The notes under the pieces: generated by a model
What the model was told of the DNA's origin: nothing
The model's database searches: none
The model's input: the letters and a program-made list of their open reading frames with translations, nothing else
Shown: positions 941-14,077 of the stretch, in pieces
How the letters are laid out: the number at the start of each line of letters is the position of its first letter
How positions within the stretch are numbered: the stretch's first letter is position 1
IMG/VR virus record: IMGVR_UViG_3300037200_000156
Location: 1 to 36,330 of that record
Origin: a virus
Strand: one strand, 5' to 3'
Length of the DNA stretch: 36,330 bases
Position numbers and translations under genes: made by a program

Positions 941-3277
941 TTGAAATTAGCAACCAAAATACATCTTAATAAGTTTTTGCCACGGACTTATCAATTGCCA
1001 ATACTTGATGCTATTCTCAATAAAGGATATAAACGAGTATTGGCAATTCTACCACGCCGTGCAGGTAAAGATATTGTTGGTTTTAATCTATGTATACGAG
1101 CATGTTTACAAAAAGTCTGTACGATTTACTATATATTCCCAACCTACAGTCAAGCGCGCAAGGTTATCTGGCAGGGAATAACTAATACTGGTGAACAGAT
1201 AATAGATTATATACCAGAAGAAATTATCAGCTCTAAGAACTCTCAAGAAATGTCCATCCAATTTACCAACGGTTCACGTCTTCAGTTGGTGGGCTCAGAC
1301 AACTACGATTCTTTGATGGGAACCAATCCCCAAGGTATTGTCTTCAGTGAATATGCTCTACAAGATCCACGGGCATATCAATATCTTAGACCGATTCTCA
1401 CGTCAAACGAGGGTTGGGCACTATTTCTAAGTACACCACGAGGAAAGAATCATCTCTTTGAATTATATGAGATCGCTAAACAACATGACTCCTGGTTCTG
1501 TTATAAACTTACCGTTGAAGATACCAATCATATTTCCTTACATGAGATTGAAAAAGAGCGCCATGATGGAGTAATGTCTGAAGATTTAATTCAACAAGAA
1601 TATTATTGTTTCCCTAGTGACCAACAAGTATTAACTTCTATGGGATGTAAGGGTATTGAGTCTATTGTTCCCAATGATATGGTTGTTTCTCATTCCGGTA
1701 GATTGAGAAAAGTGCTGGATATTATATCGCGCGAATACAAGGGCGATATGTATCAGATTAGCTCTTATGGTTCATGTGAGCCAATAATATGTACTCCTGA
1801 TCACCCAATACGTGTATATGATAGATTGACTCAGAAATATACTTGGAAGAAAGCTAAAGAAATTGATAATGAAGATAGATTGGTATTTCCTAAGATGACG
1901 TTGGGTGATAATGAAATATTGAGAGAAGAATTATGTATGTTGCTGGCCTGGTATATTACCGAAGGCAGTTGTTTTAAGAACGGTGTTCAATGGACGGTCA
2001 ACAAAGAGGAATCTCACATTGTAATAGGTTACTTAGTAAGGCTCGGAATATCTTTTGATGAACAAATTAATGGAAGTGTTATAAATATAGTAATTAATTC
2101 TGTTCAACTCGTTGATTTTTTTAAATCGACTTGCGGCTTACAGGCCAACAATAAGCGTATTCCCTTTAATTTAATTGGTGGACATGAAGATAGATTCTTT
2201 CATGAACTTATTAAAGGTGATGGGTGTCATAATATATCTAAGGGTCATGAGAGATATTGTTATACGACAGTTAGTAAGACACTTGCATATCAAGTTCAAT
2301 TACTAGCTAATAGTCTTGGTCTCGGATATGCGACAGGCATATCTAAACGTGAGGCATATAAGGGTAAAATACAGGGTAGGAATGTTAATTGCCAAGAATC
2401 TTACCAGGTAAATATTTCATTCCCAGGTCTTAGAAGTGGTGGAAAATTAATTCGAGCTAGGAACTGTATAGCCGCTAAAATTACCGACATCACCATCTCT
2501 AAATTTGAAGGAACTGTTCACAATATCAAAGTTCAATACGATGAAAGTTATTTAATTGGGGGAAGAGCTGTTCATAATTGTTCGTTTGAATTGGGTGTAG
2601 AAGGCTCATATTATAGTAAATACATAGATAAGCTTCGATTACGCAACCAGATTGGTGAAGTTCCATGGGAGCCGTCATTTAAGACACACACGGTATGGGA
2701 TTTGGGAGTCAGAGACTCAACTACTATTATATTCTTTCAGATCATTGGACAAACTATAAAGATTATTGATTGCTATGAAAACTCTAAGCATGGTCTTGAG
2801 CATTATATTCAAGTGCTCGACACAAAACCTTATAAAAACTCGTATGGTAAACACATAGCACCGCATGATATTAGAGTGCAGGAATTCGGTTCAGGAATCA
2901 CCAGAATCGAGAAAGCTCGCCAATTGGGTATAAGGTTTACCATTGCAGAAAATATTGCTGTAATGGATGGAATTGAGGCCGTTAGATCAACATTGGCTAA
3001 GGTATGGATAGATGAGCGTAATTGCAAGCCATTAATTAAGGCATTGGAGAACTATCGTCAAGAATATGATGCCAAAAGAAAGATATATAAGAATCATCCA
3101 TTGCATGATATTCATTCTCATTTTGCTGATTGTATGAGATATCTTGCAATATCATTGCCTAAGACACGCGATGGTTTATCTTCTCCTGAAGATCTAGATA
3201 AGCGTTATCGCGATACTGTTTTGGGTACTAATTCTAATATGCCATCTGTCTTTCGAGATGATTTACCACCTTATTAA
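941..3277 (+). CDS. terL: terminase large subunit, interrupted by an intein
   Basis: ATP-driven DNA packaging motor and headful nuclease. The precursor is 778 residues; removing the intein (residues 223-546) leaves about 454, normal for TerL. Visible motifs are a Walker A variant LPRRAGKD (37-44), Walker B GIVFSE (132-137), an LSTPRGKN coupling motif (163-170), and after the intein a nuclease domain with VWDLGVRDST and a C-terminal HDIHSHFAD segment. The exteins join as QQEYY-CSFELGVEG, the usual entry to the nuclease domain. TTG 941 is the only plausible start, since an in-frame TGA lies at 932-934; its Shine-Dalgarno is weak. The small subunit candidate is at 35191-35709. Confidence 0.95.
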   Translation: MKLATKIHLNKFLPRTYQLPILDAILNKGYKRVLAILPRRAGKDIVGFNLCIRACLQKVCTIYYIFPTYSQARKVIWQGITNTGEQIIDYIPEEIISSKNSQEMSIQFTNGSRLQLVGSDNYDSLMGTNPQGIVFSEYALQDPRAYQYLRPILTSNEGWALFLSTPRGKNHLFELYEIAKQHDSWFCYKLTVEDTNHISLHEIEKERHDGVMSEDLIQQEYYCFPSDQQVLTSMGCKGIESIVPNDMVVSHSGRLRKVLDIISREYKGDMYQISSYGSCEPIICTPDHPIRVYDRLTQKYTWKKAKEIDNEDRLVFPKMTLGDNEILREELCMLLAWYITEGSCFKNGVQWTVNKEESHIVIGYLVRLGISFDEQINGSVINIVINSVQLVDFFKSTCGLQANNKRIPFNLIGGHEDRFFHELIKGDGCHNISKGHERYCYTTVSKTLAYQVQLLANSLGLGYATGISKREAYKGKIQGRNVNCQESYQVNISFPGLRSGGKLIRARNCIAAKITDITISKFEGTVHNIKVQYDESYLIGGRAVHNCSFELGVEGSYYSKYIDKLRLRNQIGEVPWEPSFKTHTVWDLGVRDSTTIIFFQIIGQTIKIIDCYENSKHGLEHYIQVLDTKPYKNSYGKHIAPHDIRVQEFGSGITRIEKARQLGIRFTIAENIAVMDGIEAVRSTLAKVWIDERNCKPLIKALENYRQEYDAKRKIYKNHPLHDIHSHFADCMRYLAISLPKTRDGLSSPEDLDKRYRDTVLGTNSNMPSVFRDDLPPY
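1607..2578 (+). mobile_element. intein with DOD-type (LAGLIDADG) homing endonuclease, in TerL
   Basis: A 324-residue in-frame protein intron. Block A begins at Cys1 (CFPSDQQVLTSMGCKG). Block B is CTPDHPIRV, with the conserved T-x-x-H. The two endonuclease motifs are LLAWYITEGS and LIKGDGCHN, resembling LAGLIDADG motifs with acidic residues E and D. Block F/G runs through GTVHNIKVQYDESYLIGG to AVHN, followed by Cys+1 of the extein. All splicing residues (Cys1, His of block B, His-Asn, Cys+1) are present, so it should splice. The endonuclease also keeps its acidic residues and may be active. It sits just before the nuclease domain of the terminase. Confidence 0.95.
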
Positions 3278-10931: not shown

Positions 10932-11005
10932 GGTACTATAGTTCAGCTGGCTAGAACATCGGATAAATAATCAGAAGGTCGTGGGTTCGACTCCCGCTAG
11001 TACCA
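10932..11005 (+). tRNA. tRNA-like gene, Ile-type body with abnormal anticodon loop
   Basis: The cloverleaf is complete: acceptor GGTACTA/TAGTACC (7 bp), D stem GTTC/GAAC, T stem GTGGG/CCCGC with TTCGACT loop, discriminator A. The anticodon stem TCGGA/TCAGA has one G-A mismatch. The 7-nt loop is TAAATAA, so the invariant U33 is A and the nominal anticodon is AAT, which would read Ile AUU but is not normal in bacteria. No CCA is encoded (ATCA follows). It may be decayed, or its function may not be decoding. Confidence 0.8.
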
Positions 11006-11259: not shown

Positions 11260-11496
11260 ATGGCAATAACTACCACATCTACTTTGCCGTCACCAGTACA
11301 GCAAAGTTTCAGTTATAAGCTTTTATCGGTGCCGGTCCCCAATATGATCCATAAAATACCTGCGATGAAAAAGAATATGCCCCGTAATGGTGGTAATACT
11401 CTTAGAATGCGTAGGTATAATCCGTTGTCTACAGCTATGGTACCACTAGGAAATTCTGGTGTTACGCCTCCTGCTCAAAATCTGACAGCAGTGGAT
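11260..11496 (+). CDS. capsid exon 1 (N-terminal 79 residues)
   Basis: Encodes the N-terminal arm (MAITTTSTLPSPVQQSF...) and the MPRNGGNTLRMRRYNPL segment typical of N4gp56 proteins. The exon ends at GTGGAT; translation beyond it into the intron gives 20 spurious residues and a stop at 11559. Confidence 0.9.
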
Positions 11497-14077
11497 AGAC
11501 TTTATGTCCACGTTAAATTTTCTCTGATAGACTTGGAAACCGTAGTGGCAATAGGCTAACCGGCAACAAGGGGCAAGAATGAATAAACCTAATTGTGATA
11601 AATGTAATGTTTTAATAACTTGGGGACTTAATAATAAACATTTCGGCTATTTTAATAAATATATTACCTGTGAAGATTGTGTTATTAAGCTCGAAAATTT
11701 ATTAAAGATTGAAAAAGAAATCACAATAGATAATTTCTTTCAGCCTGAACGCAGCAAGCGAGAAGACGCAACTAATTGTAGATGGAATGAAAGATTTAAA
11801 GAAAAATGTAATTCCAAAAATAAGTATGCGATGCGGTGCTCTGAACATTGTGGAAACACAGTGAGTGAGGCTCAATAAACCTTACCGCCTAGAAATAGGT
11901 CATAAAAAGTAACAGAATTGATAGATGCGAAGATCTCGTTTTACGGTAAACGTGCCGTAACAGTTTATTTGGCATAAGACGTACGTACAAATAAACGAGC
12001 AGGTTAATTTGGCCTGCTTTAAACCCACTCTGATTGACTTGGACCTCCTTATAGGAAGACAAGGCGGAAGCGAAAGCACCGTGAACGACTAAGTGAGAGG
12101 GCGCGAAAGCGAAGCGATAGTCTGAACTCTATAGCAATATAGAGAGGAATCTCCGAAGAGGGAATCCCGCTCGAAAGAGTCATAAAAGTAACAGATTTGC
12201 ACTTTACAAAACCAAGACCCTAAAATGGATGGGGTCTATAAATTTTCTCTGATTGACTTGGAAGCCTACGGCATTTGCTAAGGTGACAGGGGCCAAGGAC
12301 GAGATTTAAACATTATGTTTCATAGGATGAAGATGCCAGCGAGAATTAAGTTTACGAATAGATTCAAGACACTCTTGACGAATAGCTATAGCTTCAGAAG
12401 AAAGCTTATTGCTACCCAATTGCGTGTTATAAGTCTTTCTGAACTTAATCATAATTTCGCATTGTTCTTTTTTGATAACCAGATATGGAAGCAATTGTTC
12501 GCACAGATCCAACAATCGATCTCCGGTAGCTGTCCAAGTGAAAACTTCTCTCTCGAATTTTCTACTAGAAGTAGATCGACAACGAGCAGAAGAAGTTCCG
12601 CTGAAAACAGTATCAATCCAATCGAGCAGTCTCACATCAGTGTTATCAATTTTAAGAAGCCCTCTGTAATGCTCGGTGACATATCCGTCGCCAGCCTTCT
12701 TGGGCAACTTACACATAAAGAAACAACCTTCTCCATCGACAATTCCAGCCATATAAGCCAAATCAATTGGTCTATATTCGGCAGGAACATAATCTTTAGA
12801 TCTTTTATAGTATTTTCTTCTTTCTTGCATAGTATCCTTAATAAAGTTAAGCAGTATTACTATATAAGTATAAATGAAGCAGAACTATTTGTCCAGGCTG
12901 AACGACTAAGTGAGAAAACCCTATTTAGGGATGCGATAGTCTGACCTCCAATCGAAAGTTGGAGAGGTGAATCCGAAGAGGTTTGCCCGCCTAGAAATAG
13001 GTCATAAAAAGTAACAGAATTGGTTCTTAATGAATGTGCGGCTCGTTTGGGTGTTTCGCTAAGGCAAACAGAAGATCAGTTGACTCGTGATATGTTAGCC
13101 TCCACGGCAAGTTTTATTAACTGTACAGGGGGTGTCGATGGCGACAATCCTACAGAAATAACAGCTGCCGATGTTAGTACAGTTGTTCGGGCTTTACTGA
13201 ATAACAATGCTTACACCATCATGGATAACATTGAAGGTGAAGATAAGTTCGGCACAGCTCCAGTTCGTGATGCATATTTTGCATTATGTTCAACTCAACT
13301 AACTGGCAGCTTGGATGGCGTTCCTGGATTTATTCAGAAGAATCAATATCCAGCTCCAATGAATGCGTTGCGTTCAGAATGGGGCAGCATTGGGAATCTC
13401 AGATTCTTGATTTCGTCTATTGGTTCTGTGTCTCAAAATGCATCTGCTAATGGCAATGATATTTATAATATCTTCTGCGTTGGCATGGAGGCTAAAATGT
13501 TAGGTCTCCTTAAATTTCTTCTGATTGACTTGGAAACCCCACGGGGCGACAGGGCGGAAGTAGCACTCGCTACACCGTGAACGACTAAGTGAAGAAACAC
13601 CGAAAGGTGAAGCGATAGTCTGAACTCTATGGAAACATAGAGAGGAATCTCCGAAGAGGGAATCCCGCCACGAAAGTGGTCACGAAAGTAACAGAATTGT
13701 ACGCATGTATTGAGCAGGATGGTTATTCTGCTTCGTTCATAAACAAATATGTGAACGTTAAATCTTCTCTGATTGACATGGAAGCCCAAGCTTAAGAGCG
13801 GGTGACATGGGGCAAGCGAAAGCAGCCTAAACGACTGAGTGAGAAGACCTCGAGAGAGGATGCGACAGTCTGAACACTACGGATAACGTAGTGAGGGAGA
13901 TTCGAAGAAGTTTCCCCGCCACATGAGTGGTCACAAAAGTAACAGAATTGATATAGACCGCCAATTTATGACGGACCTTTGGCATTAAATGCTTCAGTTG
14001 GCTATAAATTTGCGGAAGTGCCAAGGATTACTAATGATCTCTGGGTTACCAATCTACGTTGTACATTAGTATCTTAA
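11260..14077 (+). CDS. major capsid protein, N4gp56 family, split by five group I introns
   Basis: Exons: 11260-11496, 11921-11947 plus 11979-12004 (with a 31-nt interruption between), 12200-12221, 13023-13493, 13700-13740, 13951-14077; total 951 nt, 316 residues. Each boundary fits a group I P1 helix ending in U.G, an intron ending in G, and reading-frame continuity. The joined protein reads LTAVD-IDAKISFYG-TYVQINEQV-TLQNQDP-VLNECAARLG, matching the N4gp56 pattern (YGD..E.TD...EDPVL) without gaps, and ends PRITNDLWVTNLRCTLVS. Forms the icosahedral shell (HK97 fold by family). Expression needs all introns, and the 31-nt element, to be removed or bypassed. Unspliced ORFs in the region are not separate genes. 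Confidence 0.9.
11497..11920 (+). ncRNA. group I intron 1 of capsid gene (424 nt)
   Basis: P1 is exon GTGGAT with internal guide GTCCAC, last pair U.G. A P10 AUAGA/UUUAU with exon 2 is possible. The conserved start TTCTCTGATAGACTTGG and end GTAACAGAATTG, with a P9 hairpin CCTA-GAAA-TAGG, match the other four introns. The core is the most diverged of the five and holds an insert in the P6 area that encodes a small ORF. It interrupts the codon series after Asp79. Confidence 0.9.
11579..11878 (+). CDS. intron 1-encoded zinc-ribbon-like ORF
   Basis: A 99-residue reading frame. Its first 55 residues (MNKPNCDKCN... YITCEDCV) come from an insert not present in the other introns and have two Cys-x2-Cys pairs spaced like a zinc ribbon. 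The remaining residues are translated intron core and may be non-functional. AAGGGG precedes the ATG, but this is also conserved intron core. It lacks LAGLIDADG, GIY-YIG or HNH motifs. Confidence 0.4.
   Translation: MNKPNCDKCNVLITWGLNNKHFGYFNKYITCEDCVIKLENLLKIEKEITIDNFFQPERSKREDATNCRWNERFKEKCNSKNKYAMRCSEHCGNTVSEAQ
11948..11978 (+). other. 31-nt intervening element in capsid exon 2 (core-less group I-like mini-intron or bypass)
   Basis: Located exactly between the Gly codon of ...ISFYG and the Thr codon of TYVQINEQV. It breaks frame (31 nt) and has an in-frame TAA (11975-11977). P1 UUACGGU/GCCGUAA has 7 pairs ending in U.G at the exon boundary. A P10 pairing ACGU (11950-11953) with exon ACGU (11979-11982) is possible. 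The element ends in G. A 9-bp stem GTTTATTTG/CAAATAAAC (11963-11971 with 11988-11996) spans the 3' boundary. There is no space for a catalytic core. Internal GTAACAG matches the 3' ends of the real introns. Confidence 0.75.
12005..12199 (+). ncRNA. group I intron 2 of capsid gene (195 nt)
   Basis: P1 is exon GCAGGT with guide GCCTGC, ending U.G. The conserved start CTCTGATTGACTTGG, the P7 strands GACTA and TAGTC, the P9 stem CTC-GAAA-GAG and the 3' end GTAACAGATTTG are all visible. It is a minimal ORF-less ribozyme, closely similar to intron 4, and is flanked by very short exons (26 nt upstream, 22 nt downstream). Confidence 0.92.
12222..13022 (+). ncRNA. group I intron 3 of capsid gene (801 nt)
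   Basis: P1 is AGACCCT with guide GGGGTCT, ending U.G. A weak P10 GUUC/GGAU is possible. The ribozyme halves are 12222-12305 and about 12885-13022, with a large insert in the P6 loop that carries an antisense homing endonuclease. The 3' half keeps GACTAAGTGAG, GCGATAGTCTGA and a P9 CCTA-GAAA-TAGG. Confidence 0.92.
12306..12830 (-). CDS. LAGLIDADG homing endonuclease, antisense inside intron 3
   Basis: 174 residues. The motif LAYMAGIVDGEGCF (residues about 24-37) is a LAGLIDADG helix with the acidic residue, followed by a typical beta saddle (YRGLLKIDNTDVRLLDWI) and a LLPYLVIKKEQCEIMIKF segment. With one motif it should act as a homodimer and cut the intron-less capsid gene to spread the intron. 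It runs opposite to the intron, with its own AAGGATACT ribosome site and an AT-rich upstream region on the minus strand, so it can be expressed without capsid transcription. Confidence 0.93.
   Translation of the reverse strand: MQERRKYYKRSKDYVPAEYRPIDLAYMAGIVDGEGCFFMCKLPKKAGDGYVTEHYRGLLKIDNTDVRLLDWIDTVFSGTSSARCRSTSSRKFEREVFTWTATGDRLLDLCEQLLPYLVIKKEQCEIMIKFRKTYNTQLGSNKLSSEAIAIRQECLESIRKLNSRWHLHPMKHNV
13023..13493 (+). CDS. capsid exon 4 (central 157 residues)
   Basis: Largest exon, beginning VLNECAARLGVSLRQTEDQL and ending FCVGMEA. It carries the core of the shell protein. The apparent start at 13020 belongs to the intron end, not a real initiation site; the exon joins exon 3 in frame as DP-VLNE. 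Confidence 0.92.
13494..13699 (+). ncRNA. group I intron 4 of capsid gene (206 nt)
   Basis: P1 is GGAGGCT with guide GGTCTCC (one G.U inside, last pair U.G). The core shows CTTCTGATTGACTTGG, GACTAAGTGA and GATAGTCTGAAC, a P9 stem CCAC-GAAA-GTGG, and the end GTAACAGAATTG. It is ORF-less and shares a long identical stretch with intron 2 (about 29 nt around GAATCTCCGAAGAGGG), so one probably arose from the other. Confidence 0.93.
13741..13950 (+). ncRNA. group I intron 5 of capsid gene (210 nt)
   Basis: P1 is GTTCAT with guide GTGAAC, ending U.G; P10 AUAU/AUAU with exon 6. The core shows TTCTCTGATTGACATGG, GACTGAGTGAG and GCGACAGTCTGAAC (P7 pair changed in both strands). P9 is CCAC-ATGA-GTGG, without the GAAA loop of the others. 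ORF-less. The exon joined upstream is only 41 nt. Confidence 0.93.

Follow-up and report, generated by a model that had tools for sequence, protein, structure and literature searches.

How can a capsid gene be expressed when, in addition to five long introns, it is interrupted by a piece of 31 nucleotides (nt) that breaks the reading frame? The question is raised by the major capsid gene on a 36.3-kb record of an uncultured virus in IMG/VR (IMGVR_UViG_3300037200_000156; 'the window' denotes this whole stretch of 36,330 nt). An earlier note on this DNA had described five interruptions and exons that join into one frame. The five group I introns and the spliced product of 316 residues stand, but the interruptions are six in total: the 951 nt of the frame are reached only if 31 further nt (11948-11978) are removed as well, which had been done without comment by writing one exon as '27+26'. 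These 31 nt cannot count among the five group I introns and need an explanation of their own. We propose that they are probably a core-less mini-intron in the capsid transcript, which would be excised by the core of the adjacent downstream group I intron (Table 1).

A small insert with group I splice-site pairings

The capsid protein was compared, using a spliced-alignment program written for this analysis, with loci fetched by protein similarity irrespective of their intron content, which gave an unselected set of 124 usable loci. In 25 of them, an insert of 28-55 nt lies exactly at the boundary where codon 88, always GGU for Gly, meets codon 89, ACN for Thr, and a pattern scan brought the number of distinct inserts at this site, codon 88.0, to 48. 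As the scan fixed the P1 letters of the insert, invariance of P1 is meaningful only in the unselected set. The insert lengths leave remainders of 0, 1 and 2 modulo 3 in 10, 18 and 20 of the 48 cases, and therefore no fixed frameshift explains them. The codon that follows is always ACN (ACC 32, ACA 6, ACT 5, ACG 5), so that removal of the insert joins GGU to ACN and restores the conserved FYG-TYV. No small insert was present in the capsid genes of 78 loci from a sister clade, which puts the background of frame-breaking inserts near zero; apart from the case at codon 118.0 described below, no other small frame-breaking inserts were found in the capsid genes. A pattern for intronless or spliced alleles retrieved four loci, all without the 88.0 insert (L248 is one of them). 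Assembly collapse had been the first idea for the 31-nt piece and was ruled out by its conservation in relatives.

The sequence of the insert has the features of a group I substrate, namely a P1 closed by U.G, a P10 and a terminal G. The first of these helices (P1mini, UACGGU/GCCGUA) joins the terminal U of the 5' exon to the G that opens an internal guide sequence, and TACGGT is present in 25/25 carriers compared with 5/87 non-carriers. All 48 inserts end in G. P10 is formed between the loop ahead of the guide and the first bases of the 3' exon, with 99.2% of cells paired. Its variable pair, at the third base of the ACN codon, is G-C, U-A, A-U or C-G (16/4/3/2 in 25 distinct type-A rows), and a covariation of 0.172 compares with 0.048 after shuffling (0/500 shuffles). 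Because P10 covaries through all four Watson-Crick pairs, changes in the insert match third-base changes of the codon. A catalytic core of its own is absent from the insert: the 48 sequences hold no trace of P3-P9, and 28-55 nt are too short for one. With no room for such a core, the insert is not a group I intron proper.

Relatives suggest how an element of this kind may have arisen. Full-length group I introns with the same or a near-identical guide are found at codon 88.0 in L211 (330 nt), in L237 (731 nt) and in seven loci of the sister clade (212-1109 nt), a clade that has no mini-insert. Two inserts of 53 and 55 nt (L245 and L238) keep a hairpin in the P1 loop that resembles full-length 88.0 introns. 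Because full-length group I introns occupy the same codon boundary in relatives, the mini-intron is most simply read as a group I intron that would have lost its core. L211, which has the full 88.0 intron together with a 104.0 intron, represents the arrangement expected just before core loss in the upstream intron. The full-length introns at this site also make core deletion the likely origin if the insert were a decaying intron remnant, or else an assembly error or pseudogene, that is never removed. Such an account is very improbable, given that the 48 different inserts come from many metagenomes, show compensatory changes and are flanked on both sides by conserved exons; retention of the insert would moreover break the capsid frame.

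Helix H2 and the removal of the insert

The insert is coupled to a downstream intron by a further helix, H2. After the guide and a 3-nt linker, the inserts of the 48 carriers pair over 9-12 base pairs (bp) with exon sequence whose strand stops 8 nt, in a few cases 9, short of the 5' splice site at which a group I intron further downstream begins. The 8 nt in between are the P1 strand of that intron. Pairing over the 48 carriers is 89% in this register and 24-54% in every other register, and arms swapped among carriers of one type pair worse (maximum 0.817 in 2000). The coupled intron is located at 96.2, 104.2 or 116.2, and the sequence of the insert arm differs accordingly. The arm of L245, as read by eye, passes over a nearer downstream intron and fits the exon next to the 104.0 intron instead, at a spacing longer by one base; coupling to a 104.0 intron at this longer spacing is also seen in L111. 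Minimum free energy (MFE) folds of 48/48 distinct carriers hold the three helices P1mini, H2 and downstream P1 in a row, and the fold of the window sequence alone has z = -3.35.

The distribution of introns follows the same pattern. Both the insert and an intron at a coupled site (96.2, 104.2 or 116.2) are present in 24 of the 124 unselected loci, one has the insert with coupling to 104.0, none has an intron at a coupled site alone and 99 have neither (Fisher 1e-24; 3e-21 after clustering at 97%). Similarly, 20/20 mini-carriers among 80 unselected nearest relatives have an intron at a coupled site. The downstream intron itself does not need the insert, since 104.2 introns of the sister clade lack it, as does the 116.2 intron of L267, a distant locus from a metagenome bin. 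Codons 88-89 of L267 read as uninterrupted GGT ACC, exactly the sequence expected if a mini-intron were lost precisely.

A gap of this kind, which is non-coding, contains hairpins, lies in a conserved coding sequence and has a length that is not a multiple of three, might also be skipped by the ribosome, as in gene 60 of phage T4. Programmed bypassing over 28-55 nt was tested and rejected, and we consider it quite improbable. The take-off codon GGU is repeated ahead of the landing codon in 0/48 cases (the triplets there are AAG, TTG, ATG, TAG, GAG and others), and no stop stands directly after take-off, where the first triplet of the insert is AAA, AAT, ATA, AGA or TTT. Bypassing predicts neither the U.G closure nor the terminal G in 48/48 inserts, nor the covariation of P10; nor does it predict that full-length group I introns occupy the homologous site or that a helix lies next to an intron's 5' splice site.

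The sequences themselves show the insert and its conservation, the three helices and P10, the link of H2 with the downstream 5' splice site, and full-length introns at the site in relatives. We infer that the insert is excised from the RNA, that the adjacent core is the catalyst and that the two introns leave in a set order. H2 would set P1mini beside the P1 of the downstream group I intron. Going 3' from the guide of the mini-intron, the RNA order of P1mini, H2, downstream P1 and P3 core would correspond to the group I order of P1, P2 and P2.1. The downstream core could thus dock P1mini as its own P1, with H2 and the true P1 hairpin stacked in the place of P2/P2.1. The first step would consist of guanosine attack directly after GGU, followed by exon ligation at the terminal G and release of the mini-intron; the core would next dock its own P1 and splice itself out. 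Since the core departs with the downstream intron, removal of the mini-intron would have to come first.

Other catalysts can be imagined for the same substrate. Any free group I core, for example that of introns already excised from the same transcript, might cut the mini-insert in trans, with H2 merely presenting the splice sites. The anatomy of P1, P10 and terminal G would be the same, the window contains several related cores, and engineered ribozymes act in trans (PMC4094466). We nevertheless regard catalysis in trans as unlikely, as it gives no reason for the 3' strand of H2 to stop 8-9 nt ahead of the 5' splice site of one specific downstream intron; the pairing is near-perfect with specific downstream introns, and introns at many other sites are not sufficient. 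A protein endonuclease and ligase route resembling bulge-helix-bulge splicing would suit an insert that is short and structured, and a descent of bulge-helix-bulge introns from group I introns has been proposed (PMC6125680). The geometry of a bulge-helix-bulge is missing, however, the two splice sites lie in different hairpins, and neither P10 nor the link with a group I intron downstream would be accounted for, which makes protein-based removal hardly credible.

Several observations weigh against excision by the adjacent core. P1mini is invariant and hence offers no covariation support, P10 comprises only 2 bp in L238, and H2 is bulged or shortened in about seven carriers. A P9.0 partner for the mini-intron was not identified, and no systematic search for one was made. 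The carriers are related phages whose sequences are not fully independent. Co-conversion during homing could move the insert and the downstream intron jointly without functional coupling, although co-conversion alone would not explain the exact abutment of H2 and P1 at several sites.

The rule proposed for the mini-intron may extend to a much smaller element. Three loci (L103, L248 and L255) have four extra bases at codon 118.0, TATG between CTCCGT and CAAACAG, and full introns are present at 118.0 in L129 and L221. All three carry a 144.0 intron. A GCGGAG in the exon preceding this intron pairs with the CUCCGU ahead of the insert, with a closing U.G, and abuts the 8-bp P1 of the 144.0 intron (UUAACGGU/GCCGUUAA). 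Loci with a 144.0 intron but without TATG have no such GCGGAG. TATG is possibly a 4-nt intron, three related sequences being too few for a firm claim. We see an even chance that the two elements belong to a natural class of ribozyme-free group I-type introns, from ~55 down to 4 nt. Such introns would have splice-site pairings only and would be excised by a neighbour's core via a helix stacked on its P1, and a single ribozyme would thereby serve for the removal of two introns.

The capsid gene and its long introns

The five long interruptions are supported as group I introns by several lines of sequence evidence. Spliced alignment to relatives bears out the positions and lengths proposed earlier, including the 5' site of intron 5 (13740/13741), which is fixed by the intronless relatives L022/L010 (...SASFIYRPPIYDG...) where the earlier note had placed it. 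A P1 with terminal U.G was placed for all five as claimed, for instance GAGCAGGT/GCCTGCTT in intron 2 and GGAGGCT/GGTCTCC in intron 4. The common segment TCTGATTGACTTGG occurs five times at <=1 mismatch, always within the five introns (chance expectation 0.24), and every intron ends with GTAACAGA..G. In an alignment of 22 cores from the window and relatives, introns 2 and 4 included, P3, P7, P8, P6 and P9 covary, with 98.1% of cells paired, double-sided changes in 16/19 pairs and 0/500 shuffles as good; the catalytic core P3-P7-P8 of introns 1, 3 and 5 was assigned by sequence similarity to introns 2 and 4.

The Rfam covariance model for group I introns, suggested earlier as a check, misses its gathering score in the window. 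Only a tRNA is reported at that score, and RF00028 gives weak matches at relaxed E-values (cut-off 50 bits; the best score, 26.3, belongs to intron 4, and introns 2 and 3 reach 13-15). This failure is a sensitivity limit of the model and not a refutation, because the core of the family covaries and the related intron at codon 88.0 of L211 reaches 70 bits.

Introns 2 and 4, previously called near copies, are indeed the most similar pair (79% over 182 nt), as relatives that are not near-identical. Identity is 74% over 124 nt between introns 3 and 2 and 76% over 121 nt between introns 5 and 4, and the last 36 nt of introns 1 and 3 are identical. Since all five share 3' ends and cores, spread within the capsid gene is plausible. 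With ~30 apparent insertion sites, the family of this capsid gene is a hot spot for introns (fetched loci L006-L085, L201-L246 and L269-L348), and a search of the fetched loci for introns of the same sequence family outside the capsid gene gave two candidates only. The 174-residue open reading frame (ORF) in intron 3 matches PHROG 5046, labelled HNH endonuclease (1.4e-24), and Pfam LAGLIDADG_1 at 0.007, below cut-off; the ORF in intron 1 has no Pfam or PHROG match.

Profile searches confirmed the spliced product as a major head protein (PHROG 1357, 1.4e-33; Pfam Phage_capsid_4, 2e-6). A protein search of isolate phages returned a single distant capsid with 26% identity and no cultured relative with RNA data. 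Four capsid relatives (L265, L266, L267 and L268) sit in metagenome bins labelled Thermotoga, Parachlamydiaceae, Methanomicrobiales and Saccharibacteria, where contamination is possible. Elsewhere in the window, the ORF of the terminase large subunit (941-3277) is interrupted by an intein (Intein_splicing 8e-7, LAGLIDADG_3 6.9e-5), so the phage has an intein besides its introns. A tRNA-Ile (10932-11005) lies directly upstream of the capsid gene, and its anticodon, AAU, is unusual for a bacterial system.

Table 1. Features of the capsid gene in window coordinates; the last row gives positions in three related loci (aa, amino acids).
Feature	Position	Strand	Remarks
Major capsid gene	11260-14077	+	Seven exons, 316-aa product matching PHROG 1357
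Capsid exons	11260-11496, 11921-11947, 11979-12004, 12200-12221, 13023-13493, 13700-13740, 13951-14077	+	
Putative core-less mini-intron	11948-11978	+	31 nt, codon 88.0; homologous inserts in relatives; P1, P10, terminal G and H2 conserved or covarying
Mini-intron P1, 5' strand (TACGGT)	11942-11947	+	Last exon bases, U.G closing pair; paired with 11954-11959 in MFE fold
Mini-intron internal guide sequence (GCCGTA)	11954-11959	+	
Mini-intron P10 strand (ACGT)	11950-11953	+	Pairs with 3' exon 11979-11982 (ACGT); covariation at third codon base
Helix H2, 5' strand (GTTTATTTG)	11963-11971	+	Within mini-intron; 9 bp with 11988-11996
Helix H2, 3' strand (CAAATAAAC)	11988-11996	+	Exon sequence abutting intron 2 P1
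Group I intron 1	11497-11920	+	424 nt; P1 GTGGAT/GTCCAC; holds 99-aa cysteine-rich ORF
ORF in intron 1	11579-11878	+	99 aa; possible small endonuclease
Group I intron 2	12005-12199	+	195 nt; covarying core; proposed to excise itself and the mini-intron
Intron 2 P1, 5' strand (GAGCAGGT)	11997-12004	+	8 nt; partner 12012-12019
Group I intron 3	12222-13022	+	801 nt; P1 AGACCCT/GGGGTCT; minus-strand homing-endonuclease ORF
LAGLIDADG-type homing endonuclease ORF	12306-12830	-	174 aa; in intron 3
Group I intron 4	13494-13699	+	206 nt; RF00028 26.3 bits, E 5.7e-4, below gathering; covarying core
Group I intron 5	13741-13950	+	210 nt; P1 GTTCAT/GTGAAC
TATG insert (possible 4-nt intron)	L103 near 7337; L248 near 7274; L255 near 1737	minus strand of locus (L103)	

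Relation to known systems

Phage genes with several introns are already known in kind. The five long introns resemble the self-splicing group I introns of phages (T4 td/nrdB, Twort, SPO1, Bastillevirinae; RF00028) in their U.G-closed P1, P3/P7/P8 core and terminal G, and further in an intron homing ORF and the short exons in between. The mini-intron has P1, P10 and terminal G in common with these introns, whereas it is without P3-P9 and would rely on a different intron as its catalyst. By definition, every group I intron brings its own ribozyme, and the mini-intron, if our reading is true, would depart from that. In literature searches limited to open-licence papers, no description emerged of group I introns that have no core and are served by a neighbour, so that novelty is not proven. 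A practical consequence is that a short insert which breaks the frame close to a group I intron may itself be an intron and not an error.

The bypass of T4 gene 60 likewise concerns a short untranslated gap in a phage coding sequence, a likeness that ends at the matched-codon and adjacent-stop tests, which the mini-insert fails. Twin-ribozyme introns are group I introns that carry additional elements where P2 lies. Such RNA elements are described for Didymium and Naegleria (PMC1464144). Two ribozyme domains are combined there in one intron, whereas one core would serve two introns in the case of the mini-intron.

Dependence on outside help is also a feature of the group III introns and twintrons of euglenid plastids, which are degenerate, have lost catalytic domains and rely on other factors. 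Unlike the mini-intron, group III introns derive from group II introns, and we know of no evidence that the core of a neighbouring intron does the work for them. Loss of the core with continued removal by a neighbour would, if true, be the step that theories on the origin of the spliceosome postulate for group II introns, that is, loss of autonomy and dependence on a shared catalyst. Here the step could be followed in group I introns of phages, at defined sites that would show a full-length, a shortened and perhaps a 4-nt stage.

Ribozymes engineered from group I introns can cut out an internal segment, of up to 28 nt in short substrates, which they recognise through P1, P9.0 and P10 (PMC4094466). 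These trans-excision-splicing ribozymes and spliceozymes share with our proposal a group I core that excises an internal segment bounded by P1 and P10. They are engineered and act in trans, with the guide supplied by the ribozyme, whereas the mini-intron is natural, brings its own guide and would be tethered in cis by a conserved helix. If its proposed excision is true, it would offer a natural cis-acting design for excision-splicing ribozymes.

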